Shown: positions 13,493 through 64,000 of the stretch, piece by piece
Position numbering within the stretch: position 1 is the stretch's first letter
Layout of the letters: each line of letters starts with the position of its first letter
Origin: Arabidopsis thaliana
Lineage: Eukaryota > Streptophyta > Magnoliopsida > Brassicales > Brassicaceae
Direction: 5' to 3'
Length of the DNA: 64,000 bases
Assembly: GCF_000001735.4 (NCBI RefSeq)
Contig: NC_003070.9
Location: 5,580,001 to 5,644,000 of the forward strand
The notes under the pieces: model-generated
What the model was told of the DNA's origin: nothing
Seen by the model: only the letters and a program-made list of their open reading frames with translations
Databases searched by the model: none
Program-made: the position numbers and the translations under genes

Positions 13493-15179
13493 TCATCTTC
13501 CACCTCCAGCACTTCTGTTCCATGACAAGTACGATGGATCTCCCAGTTGCCTGAAACACATAGATAAATCGTAACATAAATTTTTGTCATTGCTATATGG
13601 ACTCTTAAAGTCTCAAAAACCAGTGCATCTTTCTAACGAAATGTGGCATTGTAGAGAATGTTATAATATACCTTGGTTTTGCTAGATACAAGACGGAGAA
13701 GGAAACAGCCAAGAACAAGCATATGCTACCAACAGTCAAATACGCAATCCCAAGGAAATCATTCCTTCCACCGAGCCAGCTAGTGGTAGATAGCACAAGC
13801 TTCTTTTTCCCATTAAAGCTATAAGTGTTGTAATTATTCTGCAACAAGACCTTTATCGTATCTCCAGCTTGAAGATCAGTGTCTATTTTGCCATACAGCT
13901 TTCTAAATGTTGGTAAAGCCGCGGTTCGCATCCAGACAATTAGATCTTCTTGCTCACTCAACTATCAGAACCATACATTTTTAAAAATGTTTAGATATCG
14001 ATTGATAGCGAGTAGATTGGTTCATCTCTCTTATATATCACTTTAGATTATTATTTTCCTTAAAAGATGAGATTTCAATACATCAAAAAGACTTACTGGA
14101 ATATCTTGATCAAGACTTTTACCGCCGATGAGAGATCCTTTCTGGAAATTTTTTGGGAAGACATTTTTACCAAACTTTGATTCTCTATCACTCTTCCACG
14201 AGATGTCTTTCTTATTCACTGGAAGTTTTTGGTTGTTTCTAGTGAAATCATAAGTATCATTGAACAAACTCCAAGCAACAAGACCACAAGGAACAATAGG
14301 TTGACCACCTAGTGTATCCTCCGGGGCACATGATTTGGTTTCGTGTTCATCTTTTGGACTTCTCAGTTGTCCATCTTGTCGACTTTTCACATACCTGCAT
14401 TTTGAAAATAAAAATTGGAATGCACCAATAGCACATGCTCAAAGAGGTTCTACTAGATTCCATGAAAAGGTCGCAAAACACAAGTACAATACTAATAGAC
14501 TATTAGTAATAGTGAGAAGTTACCGTCGATGGTTTTGGTAATAGTTCTCTAGCTGATAATATACGTAGACCGGATTCTTCATAGTTTTTGTCACCTATCA
14601 TAACAAAAATTCATCAAAGAAGATTGTGAAAGAAAGTTCAATTAAGAAGAACTGAAGAAGAATATAGAAAGAACTAAAGATGATATAGATATCTACCGTT
14701 ATTGTTCTGTTACACCTCTTATCTTCCAAGCCCTGTATGTATCGGACTTTGTTATCCCTAGAGGATAATGGAATGCAGTCTGTGTCATATCGATCAACAA
14801 TTTCGATGACCTGATCATGTATGTAATAAAAAAAATCAAATCATATACACAAAATATATATAATTGTAGCTGAGGAAAGTGAGAAAAGACTTAAAACATA
14901 CACCCTGAGAAGCAAATAGACAAATCACTCCCAGAGGAATAAAGACAACACCCGAGACAAGAAAAGTCAGAATCACCTGCAAAACAAGATAACCAAAAAA
15001 GAGTTTAACTATATTAAACGTTGGAAATTTTACTTCTGAGACTGTTACATCTTTATGAGTTATTGAAGCTTTACCCATTTTGGAGTAAGAATTGGTTTGC
15101 ATGCTGGAAGCTCCTGTTGGGTAAATCTTGAATCTGATGAAGCAAAGTTAGCCAACAAATTATGTTTCTTTGTTGACAT
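13493..15179 (-). CDS. ALIS4: LEM3/CDC50 family beta subunit of P4-ATPases (ALA-interacting subunit)
   Basis: Seven exons: 15179-15075, 14976-14902, 14810-14697, 14594-14524, 14394-14097, 13961-13672, 13550-13493, giving 336 residues from the ATG at 15179. Such subunits pair with P4-type flippases and are needed for their ER exit and lipid transport. Family motifs are [43 protein letters not shown] (first membrane segment), [69 protein letters not shown] and the second membrane segment before LAKPRQ. Four Cys of the lumenal domain are present. The first 16 codons from this ATG ([16 protein letters not shown]) do not resemble the family. A better first exon lies upstream at 15706-15793. By order it is At1g16360. 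Confidence 0.88.
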
Positions 15180-15705
15180 ATTCTAAGAAACTTATCTTAA
15201 GACTAGAGAAATCAAAAGGTATCACACATTTTAATTTATTGGGAGTTACATTAGTCCAACAACACAAAATGGGTTTCAACTACACCCTTGTTAAACTTTC
15301 ACATGAAATGGATTACTAGAACATACCAAACAAAGAAGAAAACGCAAGTACCCATTTGTGTGTACTAGACTAATATTAATAATCGGAATTTTTTCCTATA
15401 TAATATATCTGTATACACAATGTAAATTTTAGTCATTTGCATTGATAAAGAAATCATAGAATATGATGATCGAGAGACTAGCAACATCTCAAAGAAAGAA
15501 TCTGAGTTCTTAACATTATTTTCAATACGTTCATAACATAGAAGAACTGATCCATTACGAGGTGGAAATTATAAAGGCATTCCAGAAACACTAGGTACGA
15601 TCCCAAAGTACAGATTTGTCAAATCCGCAAAAGAAACAAAAAAATCAGAAAAATAACCGCAAATGACAAAATGTAACAAAAATTAGGGAATAGGTTAGAG
15701 ATCAC

Positions 15706-15793
15706 ATTTTGGACGCTTTGAGGTGTTTTTGGCAGCAGAAGCCTCAGCGGATCCACCCCCTAAGGCAATTGAGGACGTCGCAGAAAAGCTCAT
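15706..15793 (-). CDS. ALIS4: Candidate true first exon of the ALIS4 gene
   Basis: On the minus strand an ATG at 15793 opens 29 codons ending ...SAAKNTSKRPK plus one base, followed by GTGATC. Joining this T to an acceptor (TCATCAG) before 15133 gives codon TAT and then [13 protein letters not shown] in frame. The join [18 protein letters not shown] is the N-terminus expected for ALIS proteins. The intron would be 572 bp (15134-15705) and the protein 350 residues instead of 336. Phase matches exactly (88 + 59 nt = 49 codons). The donor is weaker than GTAAGT. Confidence 0.7.
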
Positions 15794-16761
15794 TACGAAA
15801 GAATTGACAATGAGAAAAAAAAAACTAATTTTGTTAATTCGATATATCTTTTATTCTTTAGTTTTCAAAAATATGCGTTAATTGTTTCGTATTTGACTTT
15901 TTCGTTTATCAATCATTTCACTGATTGTTAAATTTTTGTTTGAGAAATTTTGGCTAGTATCGGATTAGAGGTTAGGATTATTTAACTTGGTCCATCGAAT
16001 TGATTGATAATTTTCAAAGCTCACAAAATTAAAATGTCACCAATCAAACAAGTATGTATGTGAACTAATCCGATCAATGTAACCCTTTCAAATTAAATAA
16101 TTATTCCTACAAATATAGATGCGGTCGACAAAAAAAACTATAGCCTTCCTTCCCCTTTTGTGACAAAAGAAGAAACTTTAGTTGGTAGACATTCTTGTCC
16201 TATCCTGTCGTTCGAAAGATTCCTCTTCATCATTCCTATTATATGAGCTGGAGAAGGCATATAGTAGTGTAACCGATTCATTGTATTTGACGCCAAAAAA
16301 AAGAAAGGATTATCTGTCATGGAAGATGACCAACCTATATTTCCTCTATGCATATAATTTAATAATGAAATTAGGTATTAATTCTTTTTTTTTTTTTAAC
16401 TATTATAGGTACTGAGTAATAATAGTTACATGTTAAGTAAAGTTGAGTTTATAAAATTAGATAAAGCAAATCCACGACTAATGAGTATGAACCGTAATGA
16501 ACTGAATTCATACTTTGACTTCGTGGACCCAAGCTTCACATGAAGCACGTTTGAAATATTATAATAACGCATATTAAACACGGAATGATTTAATAATTTA
16601 TATAGATTTGACATTTTCATTTAATGATAACACAGATTCAGATTTCAGACTTATATTTATACAGTAGTTTGATAAGAATGAATTAATGAGAGTATACCAT
16701 AATACCAATAGTCAAATTCTTCAAATACACCAAAACAAAAAAGCTTTGAAACTAAACGATA
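15794..16761. other. Divergent intergenic region between ALIS4 and OCT6
   Basis: It is very AT-rich, and no gene is seen. It must carry the promoters of the ALIS gene (minus) and OCT6 (plus). Open frames of 60-77 codons at 16138-16620 lack any features. Confidence 0.45.
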
Positions 16762-18327
16762 ATGGCTGATCCAATATCAGAACCATTGTTGTCTCATCTC
16801 ACCGATGATTCTGGAGTCAACGAAAAAACCAGATTAGAAGCATTGACTTTCGACAAGATCGTCGAACAAAGTCTATCAGATTTCGGATTCTGGCAATTTT
16901 TCCAGATTTCCCTCGTTGGACTAGCTTTGCTCTTCGACGCTCAGCAGATATTCATCACCGTGTACACAGATGCTTATCCCACGTGGCACTGTCTTAACCA
17001 CACGATCTGTGATCCTTCAGCCTCCGACATCTGCAAGCTTCCAAGATCAGCTTGGGAATGGGACGGTGGCTCCCAGGGCAAATCCGTCATTTCCGAATTT
17101 GGCCTCGAGTGCTCGAGCTCTTTACTCAGAGGTATGCCTAGTTCTGCTTTCTACATCGGTGCCATTGTTGGAGGGTTTTTTCTTGCTTTGATTCCAGACG
17201 ATTCCTTGGGTCGCAAGAAACTAGTTTTGTTCTCAACCTTTGCAATGTCAATCACTTCAATCTCTGTTATCTTCTCAACCAATGTATGGATTTATACATT
17301 CCTTAAGTTTATCATTGGATTTTCGCGATCACAGACCTGGTCATACGCGTTGGTTCTCATCAGTGAGCGAGTCTCCACCAGATGGAGACCGAGAGCTACG
17401 ATGATTCCATTTACCCTATTCGTTTTAGGGTTTATGTCGTTGTCTGGAATCGCTTTCCTTGCACAAGATTCTTCATGGAGATATCTATATCTATACACAT
17501 CAGTTCCAGCGGTATTTTACTGTATCTTCCTCTACCTCTTCGCACTCGAATCGCCTCGGTGGCTTCACATGCAAGGAAAGGATAAAGAAGCCATTGATGT
17601 TCTCACAAAGATGTCACCGAAGGAAAAAGCTTATTTGGAATCAGTGGTTTCTAAGTTACCCCTCAAGCAAGAAAACTTTGAACAAGCGCCAACTTACTCG
17701 ATTAAGGACTTCTTCTTCCGAAAATGGGCTTTTCGTAGGATTTTAGTTGTTATGATCATAATGTTTGGGTTGGGAATATCGTATTACGGCGTTCCTTTAG
17801 CAGCTAGAGACATAGACGTCAACATCTACTTGAGTGAAACCCTAAATGCATTGGTGGAGTTGCCTACTTTTGTTATCACTCCGATCTTATTGGAGAGATT
17901 CAACAGAAGAAGCTCTGTTCTTGTGAATACCTTACTCGGTGGGGCATCAGGGGTGCTCTGTTTCGTTCTCAGCATTCTCGGCAAAACAGAGATCGCGTTT
18001 GCCTTCGAACTCGGAACATTCTTCTGCGCTAGAATCGGATTTAACCTTATGGCAGTTTTTATGGTTGAAATGTTTCCAACTTGTGTGAGAAGCTCGGCAA
18101 CAATGATGTTTAGACAGGCTCTTGTCGTTGGAGGAGCTTGTTGTCCGCTAATTGCTTCGATTGGAAGATACATACCCTCAGTATCGTTTGCGATTTTTGG
18201 AATTGCAATGTCTGGTTTAGGAATGTTCGTTTTGATTCTGCCTGAGACAAAAGGTTTGAGTCTCTGCGATTCGATGGAAGAACAAGAAAAGAGAGATCAA
18301 GCCGTAAATACCAGCCATGTTTGCTGA
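16762..18327 (+). CDS. OCT6: Organic cation/carnitine transporter, MFS family
   Basis: Single exon of 521 residues starting MADPISEPLLSHL. It is a major facilitator with 12 predicted membrane helices: the first near residue 45 (FFQISLVGLALLFDAQQIFI), a large extracellular Cys-containing loop between helices 1 and 2 (WHCLNHTICDPSASDICKL), then ALIPDDSLGRKK (the DxxGRK motif between helices 2 and 3), ESPRWL after helix 6, FPTCVRSSA and PETKGLSLCDSM at the C-terminus. These are the landmarks of the organic cation transporter group. Plant OCT4-6 are tonoplast proteins; the substrate of this one is not shown by sequence. It is about as long as OCT3 downstream and clearly paralogous to it, without introns. 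By order it is At1g16370. Confidence 0.92.
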   Translation: MADPISEPLLSHLTDDSGVNEKTRLEALTFDKIVEQSLSDFGFWQFFQISLVGLALLFDAQQIFITVYTDAYPTWHCLNHTICDPSASDICKLPRSAWEWDGGSQGKSVISEFGLECSSSLLRGMPSSAFYIGAIVGGFFLALIPDDSLGRKKLVLFSTFAMSITSISVIFSTNVWIYTFLKFIIGFSRSQTWSYALVLISERVSTRWRPRATMIPFTLFVLGFMSLSGIAFLAQDSSWRYLYLYTSVPAVFYCIFLYLFALESPRWLHMQGKDKEAIDVLTKMSPKEKAYLESVVSKLPLKQENFEQAPTYSIKDFFFRKWAFRRILVVMIIMFGLGISYYGVPLAARDIDVNIYLSETLNALVELPTFVITPILLERFNRRSSVLVNTLLGGASGVLCFVLSILGKTEIAFAFELGTFFCARIGFNLMAVFMVEMFPTCVRSSATMMFRQALVVGGACCPLIASIGRYIPSVSFAIFGIAMSGLGMFVLILPETKGLSLCDSMEEQEKRDQAVNTSHVC

Positions 18328-39470: not shown

Positions 39471-39543
39471 CGACCACGGTGGGACTCGAACCCACAATCT
39501 CCCGCTCCGGAGGCGAGCGCCTTATCCATTAGGCCACGCGGTC
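39471..39543 (-). tRNA. tRNA-Arg (anticodon CCG)
   Basis: Read on the minus strand, the 73-nt gene folds as a cloverleaf: acceptor stem GACCGCG with CGTGGTC, D arm GGCCTAATGGATAAGGC, anticodon stem CTCGC/GCGGG around loop CTCCGGA (anticodon CCG, decoding CGG), and T arm with GGTTCGAGTCC, which is the B box. There is no intron. The base after the acceptor stem is G73. A run of T follows at once on the minus strand (complement of 39465-39470), a normal RNA polymerase III terminator. Confidence 0.95.
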
Positions 39544-50844: not shown

Positions 50845-53768
50845 ATTCTCTCTCTCCTCTCTCACAGACACACACTTTTGAGATTCCCTCTTACCAAATC
50901 CAATTGCTTTTATGTGTATTTATACATGAGAAGTGGTGTGTGTGATCCTGACATTGAGAAACATGTTATAAACCACAGACATTGACAAATGTCACATCAG
51001 ATTTGTTGAGGTTAAAAACTTGTCTATATTGTGGATGAGTATCTGGCAAAATTCACATCTTTTTTATAATTGTATAGTTCGCATTTCTATATGTCATTAA
51101 TAAACTATTATGAAAATGTAATCAACTAAACACAGATGAAACATGTTTGAAACTTAGATACTGAGTCTCATATTTTTTATTCAATCATGAAACCTATAAA
51201 GATTGCCTCTGACCAATCTATAAGTTGAATCCATCTTTATGATGTCAAAAGAAAGGAAAAAAAAAAATACCTGTTCCTGTGATTAGTGCTGTTATCCTAA
51301 ATTATTTTGACTAATTTTGTTGTACTGCTGCAAAATGCGCAACTCGTTAGTTAATATTAGCTAATTTTGAGATTTGACTAATTAGGGTGTCTGAGTCAAA
51401 TCAGATAGGATTGTAATAATTTTTTTCTGTCTATGGCTATACCAACTTTTGAAAAACGGTTTTAAATTTTAACAAAATGAGAAAGTTTGATAAGTGGAAA
51501 TTTCATGAATAAAACTTGACTTAGTAATCTACCAAACAAGACGTAAGGATGCTATCACCTTCCGATTGGCACTCATATTTATAAGGAAGAAAAAATTGAC
51601 TGGTTAGGGTTAAGAATCGTGGAAGGCTGAATAAAATTCTAATCTATAACCATATTATACATATAAAATCATGCTTAAGAACAGTAAGAAAAAATATGTA
51701 CATCAGTCCATAGTGGATTTATTTTAAAGAAAATGGGTCCTATAACCCTGTAACATGTGTATACTTTTTTGTTTTCTTCGAATACAATGATCAAATTAGC
51801 TTTCCTTTACTTTATACACACACAACATTTCTCGACGTTCTATCTTTTTCTCCTCTTTTTTTTAGTCTCCATCCCTCTCATCATGACTCTTTTAAATAAT
51901 TTTAATCATGTCGTCTATATATTTCTCATATATATTTGGATTTAAATAACATACACAAATTATTTGGTCAAGTCATAAATATTATAAACGAAACATATAT
52001 GACATATGTTTAAAATGTTATAGAACAATATGGTTATCCAAAACCTCTAACATTTATATATCTTTTACTTTTTGAAAATTGTTATAAAACAATATCGTAA
52101 GCTTTTACCACTACTTTAACTTTAGTTTATGGTACTCAATTTAGTCATTTTGGCCATAATATACTAACCTAAATTCTAAAGATACAATGTATATCCACTA
52201 CTGATTAATATTACGTTCATCAATCTAAAGAAACATACATATCAGCATCAATCGCTTACTTAATAGGAAGTTAAGTTAAAGATTCCAAATCAATAGTATG
52301 ATTTATATTCCATATGCCAAACAAGATATGACGAAACACATCATGCTTACGTTAAATTATATGACGAAAATTAAAGTTGACATGGTGTTATTTTGGCAAC
52401 ATAAATAAAACTCAACTAGCAACTACAACAACAACAATTTTTGTTCTCACATGCATGTCCTGTATAGTTTTGTCTTTAAATCAAAACATATAACCAAAAA
52501 TCAATTAGTATATTGATGGATCTTCTAACATAATAAAGAAACTTTTTTGGAGAAGATATAAGTATTTATTCGACAATAGCATTATTGTGCATGCATCTCT
52601 AGTAAAGTTATAATCATATGTTCCTTTGTTTGGTGAACAACTTACGAAAATGTTATTTTAACTAGAACCAATTAGGTTCGCACTGGAAAAAGAAAAGTTT
52701 AGTAAACTAGGTTGAAAAAATGGAAGAAAGTTGAAATATCCCAATTTGCATGACGAAAGCAAACGTGTTGCTATTGGCACGCCTCTGTCTCTAGTCTTTG
52801 ATTTGGTTCGGCCGCCCGTTTTCGTAAATAAAATACCACAAGTACAATGAAATGAATCCGTAGTACATTTTCTGTTTACTAAGGTGTGAATAATAGTTGA
52901 ATTTGCCTTTTAATATTTGTACCGCTAACTAGCTAGCAACGAAGAGTGGTGAACGTATGTTACAATATAAGAAATTTGGTCTATATCTTATTGCGGTTGG
53001 ACTGCATAAATGTGGTACAACAAATTAATAATTCTATGTTAAAATGTATAAAATTATACTTTGGACTAGTACTGGTGAGCGTCATATATTATCCCTTTAA
53101 AGGAGAGATGGCTCCCTAATTCAACTATTCGGTCTCAAACGTATTAAAATGTATAAAACTGAAATGAGCTCAACTGTTTAACAATATAATTCTCTCTATT
53201 CTATAGTTGTTTCATGTTTGAATAGAGAACCATATTTTTAATTGATTGCAACGTTTGTTCTTTTTTCTACAACAAAAGTTACAAAACAAAAATACTAAAT
53301 AGAGGATGTATATATGTTTGGTGACAGTATGTATGTACAATATAATGTATTTGTTTGGTGAAACACCAAAGTTTTTTACTAATAGAAAGATGTTTTTATT
53401 AATAGATTTGATTATGCATTTGATTGGTGACTGGTGTGATACTAATGGTCATACTCATACGTCGGTAGCAGTTGAGCAAGATCTTGTTTGCCAAACAAAT
53501 TAATTAGGATTATATGTATATTTCTTGGCAAAAACAAAAGAGATTTATATTTTCTTTGCCTTATGTGCAATGAAATTCAGAAATGCATCCCTACTGCAAT
53601 TCGATTTGGTCAAAATCATTCAACGTCAAGATCATATTCACTGACTTTTTGTTTATAACAATGGTCTAATAGAACAAGTTATGTATATATAATAGTGTGT
53701 TCACATCATAAACCAACTATAAACTATTTGAATTAGAAATTATAATATATGTCTATTTATTGATGTTG

Positions 53769-53780
53769 TTGTAATAATAG

Positions 53781-53811
<31 letters not shown>

Positions 53812-53959
53812 AAAACTTACCTTCATTAAATGGGAAAAGTTACAAAGTGCCTCCAGATCGAGTAACACCTATTAGGAAACAAACATACAACAACCACAAC
53901 AAGAGCACATTATCAATCAAAGAGACCAAACCAAGTGGCGAGGAAGTTTGTAATAATAG
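53769..53959 (-). mobile_element. Retroposed fragment with poly(A) tail and target-site duplication
   Basis: The element body, about 167 bp at 53781-53947, ends on the minus strand in a run of about 28 A (the T tract at 53781-53808). It is bounded on both sides by TTGTAATAATAGTTT (from 53769 and from 53948). A direct repeat of 12-15 bp plus a poly(A) end is the mark of LINE-driven retroposition, either a 5'-truncated LINE or another transcript copied by LINE machinery. The body is too short to show which. Confidence 0.75.
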
Positions 53960-56900
53960 TTTAAGAATGCATGCACGCATTGTTTGATATATTTTGGCCT
54001 CTCGCGTTTAATTTTTATAATTTAAAAATAATTTAAGAAATACATATATCACAAGTTACACACAAAAATATAGTTGATTGTAATGGATGAACTTTTTCAT
54101 GTTTTGGAGTTTCTGAGTTTATAAATAACAACTTACATCTCAACAATTAATATGTAATGATAATACATTATACATCTGGCAAGTGATTAATTCAGAATAA
54201 TGGAAGTTTAGAATATGATATGCTGAGTCATGTCTTCCTATGTTTTTTTTTCTACAGATTCTCATGTCTTCCTATGTTAATTGAACAAAAATATAGTTGA
54301 TTAAAATTACCTAATCATTACATGCATGACGTGTGTTCCATAACTTGAAAAATGAAAACATTGGTCGATCGAATAATTATAAAGTAACTCCAGTGTGGCA
54401 CCTAATCTTGGAAAATATATAAATAAAACTTTTACAATTATAGGAGTTGGTTGGTAGAGGATTTGCTTAAATAGTGATGACATTTTTCATAAGTTATGAC
54501 TACCTAACTAATCACTCATAAGGTCCAAACACAGGACTCATAAATTTATATATAATTCAAAAAAAAAAAAACGCATAATGTAAGAAACAAAACAAGTACG
54601 TGATGGATTGAGAAAAAGAGAGACGATCACATTACATATGCATGACGCATCGTTAATTATTATTATTTTATTAAAAAATTTTATCAATTATGAAGAACCT
54701 TTGACAAAAAAAATTCTTGTTATCAATTTTTAAGGAAAGCTCATACATAAATACTAAAAATTGAAATAAACAATGTTATTAGTACAGATTTTATGCTGTA
54801 CAGCATGCTCGGAAAAAATAAGATTTAACGACATAAATTCTACGAAACAAATATTTATTTAGGTTAATTACAAAAGTAATACTGATAATAGAAAAGAATA
54901 TTAATAAAACTAAAATATTATGTAAAAACCTAACTTATTTATACGTTTAAGTATATATAACTTAAACAAAGAAATGTTTTCTCGTTATTATATACATATA
55001 GAGTTTTCTATCATCATACATGCAAAATAAATGCATTTGCTGATGTTAAAAAACAAATCTGAATAATATGGTTTTGAAACATTTGTAGCTTTACATTTAT
55101 ATGGGCTTAAGATATGATAGATATATGGGCTTTTAAAGTCTTTAAGCCCAATCCTCTAAAACTATAAGTGATTTTCATTTTCGAATTTTCAGCCAATGTA
55201 AGTTTGATAGTGGTGCGGCGGTGAATGCGACCGAGATGATTGTAATTTTTAATAATGTTTGTTTGATTAGGCTAATGCGTGAATCGTGATTTGCATGGAA
55301 GATTATACGTAGGATCAAAAGTGACGACTACATTGCCTTGTAAATTGTAACCGTGATTTCCCTGGAGTTTGCATCTACAATTAGTAAATTACTGTCTGTT
55401 GATTCATGTCTTTGTACAGATGACATGTCATTTCTTTTACGTTATCACCTTTGATATAAAAATATAAGCCTAACAGGCTAACACCTGTTTAATAATTTTA
55501 CAATACTTAATATAATCTTAAACTAAAGGTAAATACTAGGGTAAACATAGTGTATTTGTATATAAAATATACAAATATTGTTAACTGAATACTCCCTCCA
55601 AAATTTGGTTATGTAACAAATAAAGCCAACTTGAAACAGACTCCATATTCCAGACACTAAAAGGTCAACAAAATTTTGGTAAAAGGAACATTGAACCATT
55701 TGTACATTGGAAGCAAACAAAAAAATACTAAGAAATATTGAAAAAGTTGGTTGGTGGTGGAAAATCCGATCTCAGACTGCTGCAACTTCCTTATGGCCTC
55801 GGAATTTAAGGTTTTCAGATGCATTTTTTAACAATTAAAGTGAACATAAAAGGTGAGTGCCATTTAATTTTTGTATTAAAAACCCTTACCGATCTCGCCT
55901 TTAAATGCATTCAAATCCCAAGACCAGTCTCGCTACCATTAATAAATATATGTCCAATTTAATTCATACTATTACTATATGTGTCTCCCTGTATACATTT
56001 AGGGCTTAGCCGTCTAGTTAGGAGTAACTCGCATATATTGATTTCTGCTAGAAATATAGACAAAATAAATAAATAAATTTTTGTTTGGTACAATACTTTA
56101 TTTGTTCCAACCAACTACTCCAAATTAAAAACTCTTTCCGTTTCGTGAAGAAAATCTTTAAAACCCATGGAGATTAATTTTTCAGTTTTTATGTACTATT
56201 ACGTTAACAAAATATGACGAGAGATGTTTAAATAGCATGAATTACTACTGGTTCATGATTATGGGAATCAAGTGTTTAGTGTGAGCTAGGAATAGTGCAT
56301 TTATAATTATTTTAATTATATAACGTAATCACTATTTTTTTATTTAATATGTGTAAAAATTGAAAAATTAAGAACGTTGTGTCCATCTATATTGCCCGCT
56401 TACTTATTAAATTTGATACATGTTATAATTTATGAAAAATAAAAGGTACGTGCATGTATTTTGAACAGTATTGTGTGTGTTGAAAATTAAAGTGTTTTAT
56501 TAATTGTGCTGGTGTCATGAGAATATCGCCCGTGAGCATCATCACTTCCTCACCTTTTTACTTGTACTATAAGGAAATAGAAATTTATGTTTATCATAAC
56601 GTTTTCAACGTTATTATTTAAAGCTCTTAAATGCACACCTTCCTTATTTTCCTAGAAACTCCATTTAACTAGTTGTCCCACCAATATACATTTTTGCAAT
56701 TTTTTTGCTTATTATCGGATACTAGCAAATAAACCATACGCATTTGGTAGTAATTAGCACTTAAATTTCGAGTATGTGTTGTTTCTACCAATGTAAAGAA
56801 GGACCGTCATTAATTCAGTTTGCATGTTGAGCACATTTTCCGATTAATTAAAAAAAAAAAGAGAGAGAAAGTAAATACTTTAAATGCGTTGATTATCAAA

Positions 56901-57109
56901 GATTCAAAAACACATAAAATTGTGTACGAAAAGAGTGAAAGAAAAAAGTTAGATAATTGCCTTATTGGATTAGTTGGATGAACGGAAAAGTTCGTTGCCA
57001 CCTCCGACGGAAAGATACGTCAAACGTGGTCAAGAGCCCATGCAACAATCTAGCCTAAAAAATATTTTAAAATAATAATAATAATAATAATCAAACCTTT
57101 TCCTTATAA

Positions 57110-57660
57110 ATTTAATTAATAAAAATTAATTGGTAAATTGCTGATTTATGTTGATATTATTTATATATATTGTAGATTATAAATATAAATGATATTCTTA
57201 TATTTTAAAAAGACAATAGAACGTTACAAGTTTGAATAATAAATTTTGACCGGTAAATTGATGGTTTGTGTTGATATCATTACGTATTATATATTATTGA
57301 CAAAAAACATAAATACTGATATTTTTAGATTTTAAAATTTGAAAATAGAACGTTATAAATTTTAACTAGTAAGTTGGTTGTTTGTGTTAATATCGTTTGT
57401 ATTATATAAAATCGACAAAAAAATAAACGATATTTTAATTTTTCAAAAGGTAATAGAACGTTGTAAGTTTAAATAATAAATTTGACTGATAAATTAGCAG
57501 TTTGTGTTAATATCATTGTATAGATTATATATTATTGACAAAAAACGTATATGACATTTTGGATTTTTAAAAAGATAATAGAACATTATAAATTTTAATG
57601 GTAATATCGTTGTCCATATTATATATTATCGACAAAGGTTCTAAAAAAGACAATACAATC
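57110..57660. repeat. Degenerate AT-rich tandem repeat, period about 108-129 bp, 4-5 copies
   Basis: Copies are marked by GACAATAGAACGTT at 57212, GAAAATAGAACGTT at 57341, GGTAATAGAACGTT at 57449 and GATAATAGAACATT at 57574. Each is followed by a TAAATTTT(G)AC stretch (variably degraded), GGTTTGTGTTGATATCATT (or variants) and TATATATTATTGACAAAAAA. A partial copy precedes 57212. It has no coding sense. Confidence 0.8.
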
Positions 57661-58381
57661 TTGAAAAGTTTTTTTCTAACGCCTTATAACGGTTACTTTA
57701 TTTAATTTAGTTCTCTATAATTTTATATTAAATGAATATTATCAAATAATTTAAATTTATATCAAATTATAACAATAGTAGTATAATTTTTTTTGTTTCA
57801 GTTAACTTGAAATCCTTAACTCTAAATTTCAAACGTTAAATTCTTAGAAAATATACCATGAATATAAAAGTTGAAATTCTAAACTCATAAATCATAAAAT
57901 TTAACTCACAACAAAAATATATTTTACTCTAAAATATAAACTAATTCACCATAGTCGAATATAGGTATGCAACAACAGAAAGAATATAGGTATAGACAGA
58001 CTGAATAGTGGCTGAAATTATTGGGGACATAAAAAACATATCCAACCTATGGCCTTAATATGTGTAAGAGTTTGGTTCTAATAAGATTTCGAAAAGTCAA
58101 GAAATATATGAAGGATATGTTCTTGTTTTATCTTTTTTGCTAAAGGGATATAGATTGGTGTTAAACACATAATACTAATGGTGGTTTACTCTAAATACCA
58201 CATTCGTACCAATACCTACTTCATTAAATATCTTTGACGTGCCCAATAAAAAAGAGAAGACGAAGTGCATTAAATACATGGTTCATCAATGCGTGTAGTT
58301 AATTGAGTAATTAATTGAATTTGAACGTAAGACTAAGAAAAATTTGAAAATTATGATTACAACAAGTAGAGAGAGAGGAGT

Positions 58382-58618
58382 ATGACAAGGGGTAAAATAT
58401 GTAATTTAATGGATAGAAGCTTGAATCTACTTGTAGTTTCCATGCATTTAATGCGTTTTATTTTCTTAGCATTTATTACACTTTGTGTCTGCTTCCTCCT
58501 TGAATTCCTCCCTCCACACCTTTTCTTTGGCCTTTTTGCTGTTAATTTGTTACTCTTATTTATTTATTCATTTAATACTTATGTTGGCAACAACAAAAAA
58601 AAGAGTTTGAAAGTTTAG
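58382..58618 (+). other. Small hydrophobic open reading frame of uncertain status
   Basis: A 78-codon frame starting MTRGKICNLMDRSLNLLVVS has two hydrophobic stretches separated by PP and ends in a Lys-rich tail (NNKKKSLKV). That resembles a small membrane protein. There is no family match, no clear promoter and AT-rich surroundings, so chance is likely. Confidence 0.2.
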
Positions 58619-59000
58619 TTCGTCGATGAAAAAGATGATTCATAAAGTTCTGAATTATGGGTTTGATGATATTTACCTTAGCCTTTTTCCACTTAGGCAT
58701 GAATGGAATGGGTACAATCTCCAGTTTATAAACGTATGACAAAAATATGAAATATGAAATGATTCATATACTATCTTTCACAGATTGTAAGGTGTAGAAT
58801 ACAAAATTACACATGAAATTAAATCTTTCACGGTAGACAAAAGATGGTACAACAATAAAGAATTTCCATGCAAACAAAAGTATCCTAGTATATTCACAAT
58901 AAATGAAAGAAATTAATTGGCTATAAATTTACTACTTATAACCGTCCTCGTAATTAACTTTGAGAGTAGAAGGCTCTGTTTTTCTTACAATGGCCCCATC

Positions 59001-59008
59001 TATATAAC
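59001..59008 (+). promoter_or_regulatory. TATA box of the WW-like protein gene, with CT-rich leader
   Basis: TATATAAC lies 78 bp before the start codon at 59079. It is followed by CT-rich stretches at 59009-59019 and 59040-59068, a common plant 5' leader composition. Confidence 0.5.
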
Positions 59009-59078
59009 TCTCTCTCTGCCTAACAGACCCCATAACTGACCTCCCCTCTCTCTCTCTCTTTCTCTCTGCTTTCTTGGT

Positions 59079-59995
59079 ATGGCTGCTGACGTCAGCTCTC
59101 TCGTACGGATACTGAGTAGGTTCAAGGATGATCGGACGGTTGTAAAAGATTCCACCGGACCAAGATCCACGGTGGCGCTCATGACACGCGATCTCCTCGG
59201 AATCGGCGGTTGTGTGGGTGGAGGAGGAGGAGGAGACGAACAGTCGCTGGAGCTTGACCTTGACGTCCAAGTCCCTAACGGATGGGAAAAACGTCTCGAC
59301 TTAAAGGTTCGTCGCTATTTTCTTTCTTCTTGATTTTTGTAGTTTCGTGTTCTCGAGAGAATTTGGAGATAAGAAACTAACAAAACAGAGAGGTTTCCAA
59401 AGATTTGAATGATTTATAGATTCGTTGTGATTTTTTTGAACAGTCAGGGAAAGTGTATCTGCAACAACAATGCAATTCAACGAGCTCGTCATCATCGTCT
59501 CATCATCATCATCATCATCACGAAGACCAAACCAACCAAACAGTTCCAAGATTTCAAGATTTGAATGTGCCACCGATTTCCGATAAGTTTCCGGCGAAAC
59601 CATTGTTAAGCCTCTTCGACGATGACGACGACACAAGCCTTGAACTGAAGCTAGTTCCGTCTTCTATCTCTCGTCCTCTTCCTCCTCCTCTGTCTTCTTT
59701 TTCTCCAAATCAGTCTCTCTCGTATCTATCGAGTGTTTGCACACTAGATAAGGTGAAATTGGCTTTGGAAAGGGCGGAGAAAGATACAAAGAAACGCCAA
59801 TCTCCTGAAGATGACGGCGTTTACGATGGAACCGCTTCTGCCACCGTCGCGGCGTCTCAGGTGGCGGCTGGATGTCCAGGGTGCTTATCGTACGTGTTTG
59901 TGGCAAAGAACAATCCGAAATGCCCGAGGTGTCATTCGTTTGTTCCTTTGCCTGCCATGAAGAAGCCTAAGATTGATCTTAACATTTCGATGTGA
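59079..59995 (+). CDS. Plant-specific small protein with WW-like segment, CxxC zinc-ribbon and EAR-like C-terminus
   Basis: Two exons, 59079-59306 and 59444-59995, give 259 residues. No enzymatic family is recognised. Residues about 66-82 (VPNGWEKRLDLKSGKVYLQ) match the first half of a WW domain, and the intron falls inside it; the second Trp is absent. Ser and His runs (SSSSSS then HHHHHHH) follow. The C-terminal part has VCTLDKVKLALERAEKDTKK and then CPGCLSYVFVAKNNPKCPRC, four Cys in two CxxC pairs that could hold a zinc ion. The protein ends KKPKIDLNISM, an EAR-like DLN motif. Together this suggests a nuclear adaptor or repressor, as proposed for plant proteins with the same C-terminal block, but the role is inference. 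By order it is At1g16500. Confidence 0.8.
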
Positions 59996-60403
59996 AAAAA
60001 ACTTTGGGGGATAGAATTGAATGGTTTTATTTTGTAGGTTCGATTTCTGTAAATGATAGATAAAATCAGGGGGTTTCATTGAAAAGAAATTAAATGCAGA
60101 AAGGAAGAGATGGATGTTATTTTGTAAATTGTTATGTAATGGATTTTCTCTGATGAATGAATAGTTGATCTTTAATTATTTGAAAAACGCTCTAATTAAT
60201 TAGATACTACTAGAGAGTAAGAGGTAACCAAATTATACTCTTATATTATTTGGTCAACATATTTCATTATATTTACTTCAACTGTACTGGTATTTATTCC
60301 GCATCTTAAAGAACCCAATGTTTTTATTTGTCATATTAAGGAAGCAACTTAAGTCACGGGTTAGTTCAAAGTTAGTTGGAGAAATTTATATAAGTTACTT
60401 TAT
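59996..60403. other. 3' flank of the WW-like protein gene
   Basis: 3'UTR followed by AT-rich intergenic sequence. Nothing else is seen. Confidence 0.5.
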
Positions 60404-60657
60404 TATTCTCTCTGTTTCGAGATATATTTTAGTATATGTTTAGTTTTTATACATGATGTATACTGTATAAAAACTTATTTGCAATTACAAAGTGTATACC
60501 ATTGTTTGTATATTCATATTATTTAGAAAATTTCTTTAGTATTAAATTAGGTGTAAACTAAAAGGTAAAATAAAAAACATTCAATGAAAAAAAAAATCTA
60601 ATTTCTGAAACGAGAAGAAATATTCCACAACATCTAGTATTTGAAACGGATGGAGTA
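60404..60657. mobile_element. Stowaway-like MITE (TA target duplication)
   Basis: The left end TATTCTCTCTGTTTCGAGAT and the complement of the right end, TACTCCATCCGTTTCAAATA, match imperfectly over about 20 bp. They resemble the CTCCCTCCGTTTC ends typical of plant Stowaway/Tc1-mariner MITEs. TA flanks both sides. The 254-bp interior is AT-rich and non-coding. Confidence 0.65.
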
Positions 60658-63600
60658 TTTTGAAAATCATATTCTTATACAAAATGCACACGCTTGCAGC
60701 CTTAAACAATCTGGCTTGATTCTTTTATTTTAGTGTAACGGAATATTTACATTAAGGTAATCTAATGACGTTTCAGTATTTTCAAGTATCTTTTGTTCCC
60801 AATGACATTAAGTGGAGTATGACGAATTCACCGTAGACATAGAGTACTGGTAAGGCTACTTAATACATTGATTAAACCGACGAAAAATGAGAATTTAAGT
60901 GGAATAATGAGTCATTAAAGTTTGCTGACCTAACTCCACTTCCATAGGGTAACGATGCATGTTAATGCACACGCATATACCGTATAAAAATATTTTTCGA
61001 AACAAGTAATCTTCTCAAAACAATATTCATGGATTAAAAAAAAAATCACTATAAGAAATTGCTAATTTTATTCAAGTGAGTACACTGCTATTACAACAAT
61101 AGAAGAAGTGTTTAATAATTGTTTCAGTAGGACCTTAAGTAATTAAAATATCTCGTGGAATAACTTTTCCATTTAACACATTCCTGATGGAGTACGGATA
61201 TACGCTTTGGTTGGTATTTGTCTTTATCAAATATTGAAAACGTTTAAGTGTATTTATGAGTCAACCGTTACAAACTTTGGTCCAAATCAATACATTATTT
61301 TAAAACTCATATCACACCAATATCTGAAGTAAATAAGTCACTTTAAACATCAACAACTTATTGGTAAAAATGCCAGAATTCGAAGTTTTTTTGTGTGTGT
61401 ATGTAAGAAAGTGTTCCTCAAAGGGCCATCGGTATTCCTAAAGAGATTTACCATATGGTAAAAGATAAAATGGATTGGGGTTGAAGTCTTTGTTTTGTTA
61501 ACTAAACAAAAAAAAAGGGAGAGAAAGAGAGCATGGAAAGTCATGCTAGTGAAAACAAAGTCAGTTAATTGGATAGCGACCTCTACTAATAAATACCAAT
61601 TAATGCTCTTAAAACAATTTTGAGTTATTATTTTTTAGCTTTAAGGAAAAGTCTAAAATCTTCGAGTCAGCATCTACATTAAATTATGCTGGCACTTAGT
61701 ATTGCTTCAAAGGCAATCCCGAAAAGGAAGAAATACAATTTCTGATTGTAAATAATATTCCACGCCATTATATCGCACGTCACTATTCATTTGCAGATAC
61801 AAAAATCGTAATTAAGTAAAGGGACGTGAATCTGTCTTTAAAACAACGAAAATTCAACTTCCGATCCCTACTTTATACAGTACTTTTCTTTATTTAAAAA
61901 AAACTCCTCAATATTTCCAAAAAATCATTGACCAGAACATACATTTTATACGTAGACATTTTTTTCAATATCTTTATCAGAATTTTCGTTTTCAAAAATT
62001 TAAAAAATTGTAAAAACAAATACCGCTCATTATAGAAAATAAATTTGGTAAAAGAATATAAGTAGATTTATGATTGCTGAAAAATATTTGTTAGTCACCT
62101 TAAATTTTGTTGTTTCAGAAATTGCTTCCATTTTTTTCACACAATATGTTTGTTTTCGTCTGCCCGTGACTATGCAATAGTGAATAGTCCCGTCTTAAGT
62201 CTTCGGCCTTCTCTTGATACGACCTTGTTTAATCAGCTAGAAATTTTTAAAAGGTGTGGTGTTCTGGTGCCTTCTCTTAATACGTTACTGTTATTGAGTT
62301 TCACTAAGTTATAGGCTTATAGCTTACATAGCTTTTTAAGAAGTTAGCTTACAAAGTAATCTAGGCCCATATAAAAGTTAGTATGCTCAGGCCCAATACG
62401 ATGATTGCTTTTGTATGCTCTGTCGAGAAAAAGCCTAGACCTATAAATTTATTTTCTAAAAAATTTCAGTCACCGATGATTCCATGGGAACTACGGGGAA
62501 AATAAGCATACGAATTTATTTTGTCTGTTTAGTATTTCAATTAATACATGTAATATACTCAGTTACTTACACGACTATGAATACATATGGTTGTGGTTAT
62601 TGATCTAGGGATGTTTCCTAAAACCTTCTATATATTGCGTCTTCTAGAATTCTTAGTTCGAATCTTATCTAGACAAAATTTAGGTTATGATAGGGAGATA
62701 TATAAGTCTCAAACCTTTTGAAAAAAAAAAGTTGTACATTCATGAAAGTACATATACAAAAGTTGGTCGTTGGTGTACGCCTGTACGGATTTAAGGTTGC
62801 CCAGCTGCAACTCATGCTTTTATTTTATTTTTTCACTATATACATATGCGTACTTGTTAGCTTTAGCTTTTTTACTTAAGTTTCCCCAACTTCGTACGAA
62901 ATAGAAGCACACATGTGCAATAAGATTTGCCAAATCAACCTTCTAGGCTTCTAGCCAATAGTTGACTGCCACATCACTAATTCTGCAGATTCGTGGATAT
63001 TATAAAATTTGTAGATCTCAATATTCCGGCAAATAGTCCAACACCGTACCGTACCATCCCGATTCATGATTTTCATCTTCTTAAATAATTGTAGTTTCAT
63101 ACACTGGATATTTCTTGCTCTGGTTTAATTAAGACGAACTTTGGTTTGACTGTTACAATGTTGAAGAAAAAGTGCTTCTATATTTTCCATCTAATTATTT
63201 GAATGAATGCAGATCCACTAATCGGTTTGACTTTAATAGTTACATAAAACACCAAAAAATATTTATGTATATCACATTTCTTTTTTTTGTTCTCTTGCAA
63301 AACTTGTCGTTGCTGTTTTGCTCAACAAAAAAAGACTTCTTGTTGTTGTAATTTATTCTTTCCTCTAATGGACAACCTGCATATACGACTAAATAAACCG
63401 CTATACTAACGTCGTTGTACTAGTTTTTCTCTGTTTTACCAAAATTTACAATGTAAGTAAATATGAAATAGGTAAGACAAATTCCTTTTAATTTGTTTGA
63501 CAATGATTTCTTAAGATATACAAATAGAATTTGTCCTAGTACTAGTGGATTCTCCACTCAAATGTAGTGACATCTACGTTATAAAATTAGAATTTTCGGT

Positions 63601-64000
63601 GTCAAAGAGCTTTAAGGTTAGGTTATTTAAGGGCAAAAAAACTCAAACCAATTTGTGAGTTTATAGTTTGACCTAAGACCGAAATATATACATACATACG
63701 TGATATATCCCTGTTATTAATTAGATGCAACTAATAAACATCTAATCAATACAATCCAACGAAAATGTCGGCAGCTTTACAATATTAACAAGAAGTTAAA
63801 AGAGTACATAACCAATTCGCAACTTTGATAAAAATAATTAAAAAAATTAAACAAATTATATAAAACGTAAACACCAAAAAGTGTACGCCAAAAACAAGGT
63901 GCATGTCGACTGTACCTGTGCAAAATCCAAATAAAAATTAAAAAAATCAAAATTTTCTTAATGGATCTTTCTGTATCTAATTGTTTAAAAATTTAAATTT
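60658..64000. other. Gene-empty AT-rich interval to the right window edge
   Basis: No gene is seen on either strand; the longest open frame (61350-61544, minus) is 64 codons without features. It probably includes the distant promoter of the next gene outside the window. Confidence 0.5.

Follow-up and report, generated by a model that had tools for sequence, protein, structure and literature searches.

The segment that extends from position 15793 to position 15706 on the minus strand of the stretch analyzed here is, in all likelihood, the exon with which the coding sequence of ALIS4 (At1g16360) truly begins, as judged from its sequence, its reading frame, its conservation among paralogs and its alignments, all of which were obtained in the present analysis. 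Very probably, it is the ordinary start of the close family of this gene, so that the point concerns the gene model, is of low novelty and involves no new kind of biology: what is already known is the kind, that is, the standard ALIS first exon. The ALIS4 locus lies within the window, by which we mean the entire 64-kb stretch (NC_003070.9, positions 5,580,001-5,644,000, chromosome 1 of Arabidopsis thaliana), and the gene is on the minus strand. We infer that it is ALIS4/At1g16360, which encodes a beta-subunit, of the CDC50 type, of lipid flippases (P4-ATPases). Its product matches the Pfam CDC50/LEM3 family PF03381 with 298.5 bits against a cut-off of 28.6, over profile positions 2-286 of 286, and its 350 residues agree with the length near 350 expected of the ALIS subgroup; the names ALIS1-5 are those that we take to belong to the five loci of the family. 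The order tabulated for this region, with the IMPDH-like gene At1g16350, the LEM3/CDC50 gene At1g16360 and OCT6, At1g16370, agrees with the locus (PMC6175328). The passages on At1g16360 in two papers are silent on the gene model (PMC6175328, PMC3257299); they report that root hair length was best predicted, in an inverse manner, by the expression of this gene (PMC3257299) and that a T-DNA line of the gene did not differ consistently when assayed with ABA and jasmonate (PMC6175328).

The spliced model of ALIS4 comprises 8 exons separated by GT-AG introns and yields 350 residues up to the stop codon; UniProt apparently lists an ALIS4 of 336 residues. Coding exon 1 (15706-15793, 88 nt) opens with the minus-strand ATG at 15793-15791 and consists of 29 codons, encoding MSFSATSSIALGGGSAEASAAKNTSKRPK, followed by T at 15706 as the first base of codon 30, with GTGATC starting at 15705. 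Intron 1 (15134-15705, 572 nt, phase 1) runs from GTGATC to CATCAG; its terminal TCATCAG ends at 15134, and ATTCAAGATTTACC begins at 15133, where exon 2 (15075-15133, seen in both the frame reading and the spliced model) supplies the rest of the Y codon, so that exons 1 and 2 join in phase 1. The spliced model further gives exon 3 at 14902-14976, exon 4 at 14697-14810, exon 5 at 14524-14594, exon 6 at 14097-14394, exon 7 at 13672-13961 and exon 8, which includes the stop codon, at 13493-13550, all on the minus strand. The coordinates of exon 1, the donor GTGATC and the acceptor TCATCAG, as proposed in an earlier note on this DNA, were reproduced both on direct reading and on recomputation, and the complete spliced model likewise agrees with its claim that splicing exon 1 to exon 2 keeps the frame and gives 350 residues. 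Elsewhere in the window, a tRNA-Arg gene with the anticodon CCG occupies 39471-39543 on the minus strand, and the G+C content is 0.29-0.32 across 52001-64000 vs 0.35-0.40 in the remainder.

A search of the genome with the Pfam CDC50 family produced at least 13 exon-level matches at no fewer than five loci. We take the locus at 29.887-29.890 Mb of chromosome 1 to be ALIS5 (At1g79450), and those at 4.05 Mb of chromosome 3 and 20.28 Mb of chromosome 1 to be, respectively, ALIS1 and ALIS3. In ALIS5, ALIS3 and ALIS1, exon 1 consists of 29, 29 and 30 codons, respectively, that end with SKRPK and are followed by T, a phase-1 intron and an AG/ATTC acceptor (the slash marks the splice junction); ALIS1 has a single additional residue as compared to ALIS4. 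All four genes share the SKRPKYS(R/K) start, with the intron inserted after the first base of the Y codon. The length of intron 1 varies, from 572 nt in ALIS4 to 452 nt in ALIS5, 243 nt in ALIS3 and 208 nt in ALIS1. According to the spliced alignments, the seven introns of ALIS4 are located at identical codons and in identical phases in all three close paralogs. There is an element of circularity in these alignments, given that the paralog proteins were modelled with the ALIS4 350-mer as the guide; the paralog exons were, however, also read from frame translations, independently of the ALIS4-guided models. In the reverse test, alignment of each of the three paralog proteins (ALIS5, ALIS3 and ALIS1) with the ALIS4 locus recovered the ATG at 15793 and the intron 15705-15134 (3/3), and replacement of 15800-15681 by A cut the scores by 91, 72 and 74, respectively.

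The closest likeness is to ALIS5, which shares with ALIS4 the 29-codon exon 1 ending with TSKRPK, nine donor bases (AAT/GTGATC), the phase, AG/ATTC and the seven intron places. ALIS1 and ALIS3 resemble ALIS4 in an exon 1 that ends with NSKRPK, in the phase-1 intron and in AG/ATTC, but have the donor AGT/GTATTT, shorter introns and K instead of R in S(R/K)FTQQ. ALIS5 has, at a distance of no more than about 20 kb, a match to OCT6 (72% protein identity) and a piece of IMPDH (81%); ALIS4 likewise has OCT and IMPDH neighbours, which suggests duplicated blocks, and ALIS5 is apparently the block-duplicate sister of ALIS4. The expectation of the earlier note that plant ALIS proteins start with SKRPKYS(R/K) and are about 350 residues long is in accord with the starts of the four proteins and with the lengths of ALIS4 (350), ALIS5 (350) and ALIS3 (349), the latter two being those of models with the stop codons left aside; in the alignment of the 350-residue translation with other ALIS proteins that it envisaged, the exon 1 start is matched in ALIS5, ALIS3 and ALIS1.

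For ALIS2, the automatic spliced alignment gave a poor N-terminus, with extra introns and lacking an ATG, and a manual reading was used instead. Read by hand, ALIS2 starts with MMEVEGS...RSRRSK and continues, after a 170-nt intron in phase 1, with LYQFKQQ; the distance from this intron to the FxQQ motif is greater by one residue than in ALIS4, and the sequence differs as well. A match at Chr4:690837-690908 was considered as a spliced retrocopy that would prove the junction between exons 1 and 2, and was rejected as a genomic copy of ALIS1 with intron flanks. The copy at 690794-691015 of chromosome 4 (223 bp, 97% identical) covers ALIS1 exon 2 and parts of both flanking introns; apart from it, the 4.0-kb ALIS1 locus matches nothing in 9.5 kb of the surrounding chromosome 4 sequence. 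Apparently, the copy is a small duplicated gene fragment that is mute on splicing.

The splice sites of intron 1 are weak or mediocre when taken alone, and their strength by itself does not single out the pair. With position weight matrices trained on 18 introns per test, one gene being left out and first introns excluded, the ALIS4 donor AAT/GTGATC scores 2.8 bits, which places it 8th of the 44 GT dinucleotides in the neighbourhood, and the acceptor scores 1.4 bits, 4th of 25 AG. The first-intron donors of ALIS4, ALIS5, ALIS3 and ALIS1 all fall between 2.5 and 4.7 bits. Since a few later introns score equally low (for example, a donor of ALIS1 with 0.5 bits and an acceptor of ALIS4 with -0.5), a matrix this small appears to be a poor judge of sites. 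In all four genes, the first-intron donor has T at -1 and lacks G at +5; perhaps, the weakness of the donor is due to the splitting of the conserved Tyr codon. A weak first-intron donor could leave room for some intron retention.

Such retention is one of the routes by which ALIS4 might produce two real isoforms, the 350-residue form and a 336-residue form that starts at position 15179, the other route being a promoter inside the intron. We consider this possibility rather unlikely. The ATG at 15179 indeed has an open path into exon 2 in frame, and recomputation confirmed the 336-residue reading reported in the earlier note, as well as its statement that the first 16 residues are unlike those of other ALIS proteins. 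A weak donor would also permit some retention. However, the 46-nt stretch that carries this start (15134-15179, minus strand) is the 3' end of an intron common to these genes. Intron 1 of ALIS4 contains 15 ATGs, of which 14 lie upstream of 15179, and each of the 14 frames closes before that position; a transcript that starts upstream and retains the intron would be translated in the frame of exon 1 first, ending with ...KRPKCDL at the stop codon 15697-15695. Given these upstream ATGs and this early stop, efficient translation of the 336-residue form would most likely require a promoter of its own inside intron 1. Furthermore, in none of the three paralogs examined (ALIS5, ALIS3 and ALIS1) is there an in-frame ATG at the equivalent place, where 45, 8 and 2 codons, respectively, are open before the acceptor; the absence of such an ATG from its open stretch sets ALIS5 apart from ALIS4. 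Hence, of the two readings offered in the earlier note, that of alternative isoforms retains the in-frame ATG itself and finds no counterpart of it in the paralogs, with nothing that favours it, and the short intronic start is most readily taken as fortuitous or, at most, as the source of a minor form.

Were the short form made, Phe and Ala would take the place of Lys-26 and Arg-27 of the 350-residue form, and a tail devoid of K-R-P might alter the coupling of the flippase. This extension, which would add to the preferred explanation rather than replace it, is hardly more than a slim prospect. Even less probable, in our view, is the idea that ALIS4 alone, as compared to ALIS5, ALIS3 and ALIS1, gained a second, intronic start and that a cell-type-specific choice between the starts, for example, in root non-hair cells, tunes the flippase; if true, the second start would give a beta-subunit that lacks the basic residues of the exit gate.

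It seems very unlikely that the 336-residue form is the sole product and that exon 1 is a relic that has been out of use since the duplication. In favour of a relic are the weak donor and a conservation below that of the remainder of the gene: exon 1 of ALIS4 and ALIS5 is identical in 18 of 29 residues, as compared to 274 of 321 elsewhere in the protein. Nevertheless, the start codon, the frame, the length (29 codons, as in ALIS5) and the splice dinucleotides have all been kept, the nine donor bases are identical in ALIS5, and so are the last six residues of the exon, TSKRPK. The differences between the two first exons number 5, 7 and 14 at codon positions 1, 2 and 3, respectively, so that 14 of the 26 are found at third positions, an excess that is drawn from few sites. 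At the DNA level, exon 1 of ALIS4 compared with that of ALIS5 scores 36 vs 2.1 +- 1.4 for 60 shuffles; intron 1, with a gapped score of 18.5 vs 4.3 +- 1.9 (60 shuffles), retains some similarity too, and thus the similarity of DNA alone is no proof of coding. It is the conserved peptide, together with its place and phase, that carries the case for the putative coding exon.

That case was put in numbers by scoring each GT in the 64-kb window as the end of an ALIS-like first exon (3385 + 3524 = 6909 sites on both strands), with the first-exon peptides of ALIS5, ALIS3 and ALIS1 as the three queries. The donor at 15705 scores 82, 67 and 63, respectively, and is the best of the 6909 sites, the next unrelated site reaching 15; the maximum over 200 dinucleotide-preserving shuffles of 15135-18000 (minus strand) is 27, as compared to 82 for the true sequence. 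Genome-wide, the exon 1 match by itself is weak (E = 0.025), and among the 9 places scored in that search 3 are exon-1 matches (ALIS5, ALIS4 and ALIS3), with exon 1 of ALIS1 not among them. The view that an open frame merely happens to resemble an ALIS tail can draw on this modest E value, but has a negligible chance of being correct considering the gap between 82 and both 15 and 27 at precisely the expected place, strand and phase. The Pfam CDC50 score, which was tried as an arbiter of the starts, proved uninformative (298.5 vs 298.7 bits), being blind to the choice, since the tail lies upstream of the matched region.

Under the preferred explanation, with exon 1 as the start of ALIS4, transcription would begin upstream of 15793, intron 1 (15705-15134) would be spliced out in vivo, as presumed for the paralogs, and the product would be a 350-residue beta-subunit of the CDC50 family, to which exon 1 would contribute a cytosolic N-terminal tail with K26-R27-P28 at its end. 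The homology with yeast Lem3 suggests that, in plants too, the tail may rest on the TM4-P-domain loop of its P4-ATPase partner, with one of its basic residues at the gate through which lipids exit on the cytosolic side. Between this loop and the beta-subunit tail, a conserved contact has been described (PMC12424579). In Dnf1-Lem3, Arg-51 of Lem3 contacts lipid at the exit site; the R51A replacement raised glucosylceramide transport 1.5- to 2-fold, leaving PC and PE unchanged and not stopping exit from the ER, and deletion of residues 2-49, with Arg-51 left in place, lowered the uptake of PC, PE and GlcCer (PMC7773333). An analogous arginine is present in Cdc50 (PMC11460456). In Arabidopsis, the P4-ATPase is said to determine the substrate specificity (PMC4404812, citing Lopez-Marques 2010), which counts against a role of the tail in substrate choice in plants. 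ALIS1, ALIS3 and ALIS5 have been reported to form a complex with ALA1 and to enable its exit from the ER, in a paper the main text of which contains no occurrence of the term ALIS4 (PMC3326016); a phrase search for the CDC50 N-terminal tail in PMC9045818 gave no hit. For cloning or tagging of ALIS4, the 350-residue form is the suggested N-terminus, as it keeps the tail for which homology predicts contact with the P4-ATPase; functional tests of a 336-residue construct, in which the basic motif of the exit gate would be missing, could be misleading.

The proposal of the earlier note to take the upstream exon as the real start gains support from the equal exon-intron anatomy of three paralogs and from the presence of the basic-Pro motif in human CDC50A and yeast Lem3. 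The end of exon 1 encodes a basic-basic-Pro motif, K26-R27-P28, in the cytosolic tail of ALIS4. Human CDC50A (chain 6k7g_C) aligns with ALIS4 with E 2.3e-57 over query residues 12-325 of 350, the end of the tail included, and its R-R-P falls, free of gaps, on K26-R27-P28. In the yeast Lem3 chain, RRPKEDAFTQQRL begins at residue 51 (R-R-P-K), and chain 9dzv_B has K-R-P at that place, as in ALIS4. When the shared Phe is lined up, Arg-51, Arg-52 and Pro-53 of Lem3 correspond to Lys-26, Arg-27 and Pro-28 of ALIS4, a pairing by spacing rather than by direct alignment that holds provided the residue numbering of Lem3 is the same in the chain and in the paper. The upstream portions of the tails of yeast Lem3 and human CDC50A largely differ from that of ALIS4, and Arg-51 in Lem3 and Arg-26 in CDC50A stand against Lys-26, whereas the basic-basic-Pro motif and the FxQQxL motif, at equal spacing, are common to all three proteins.
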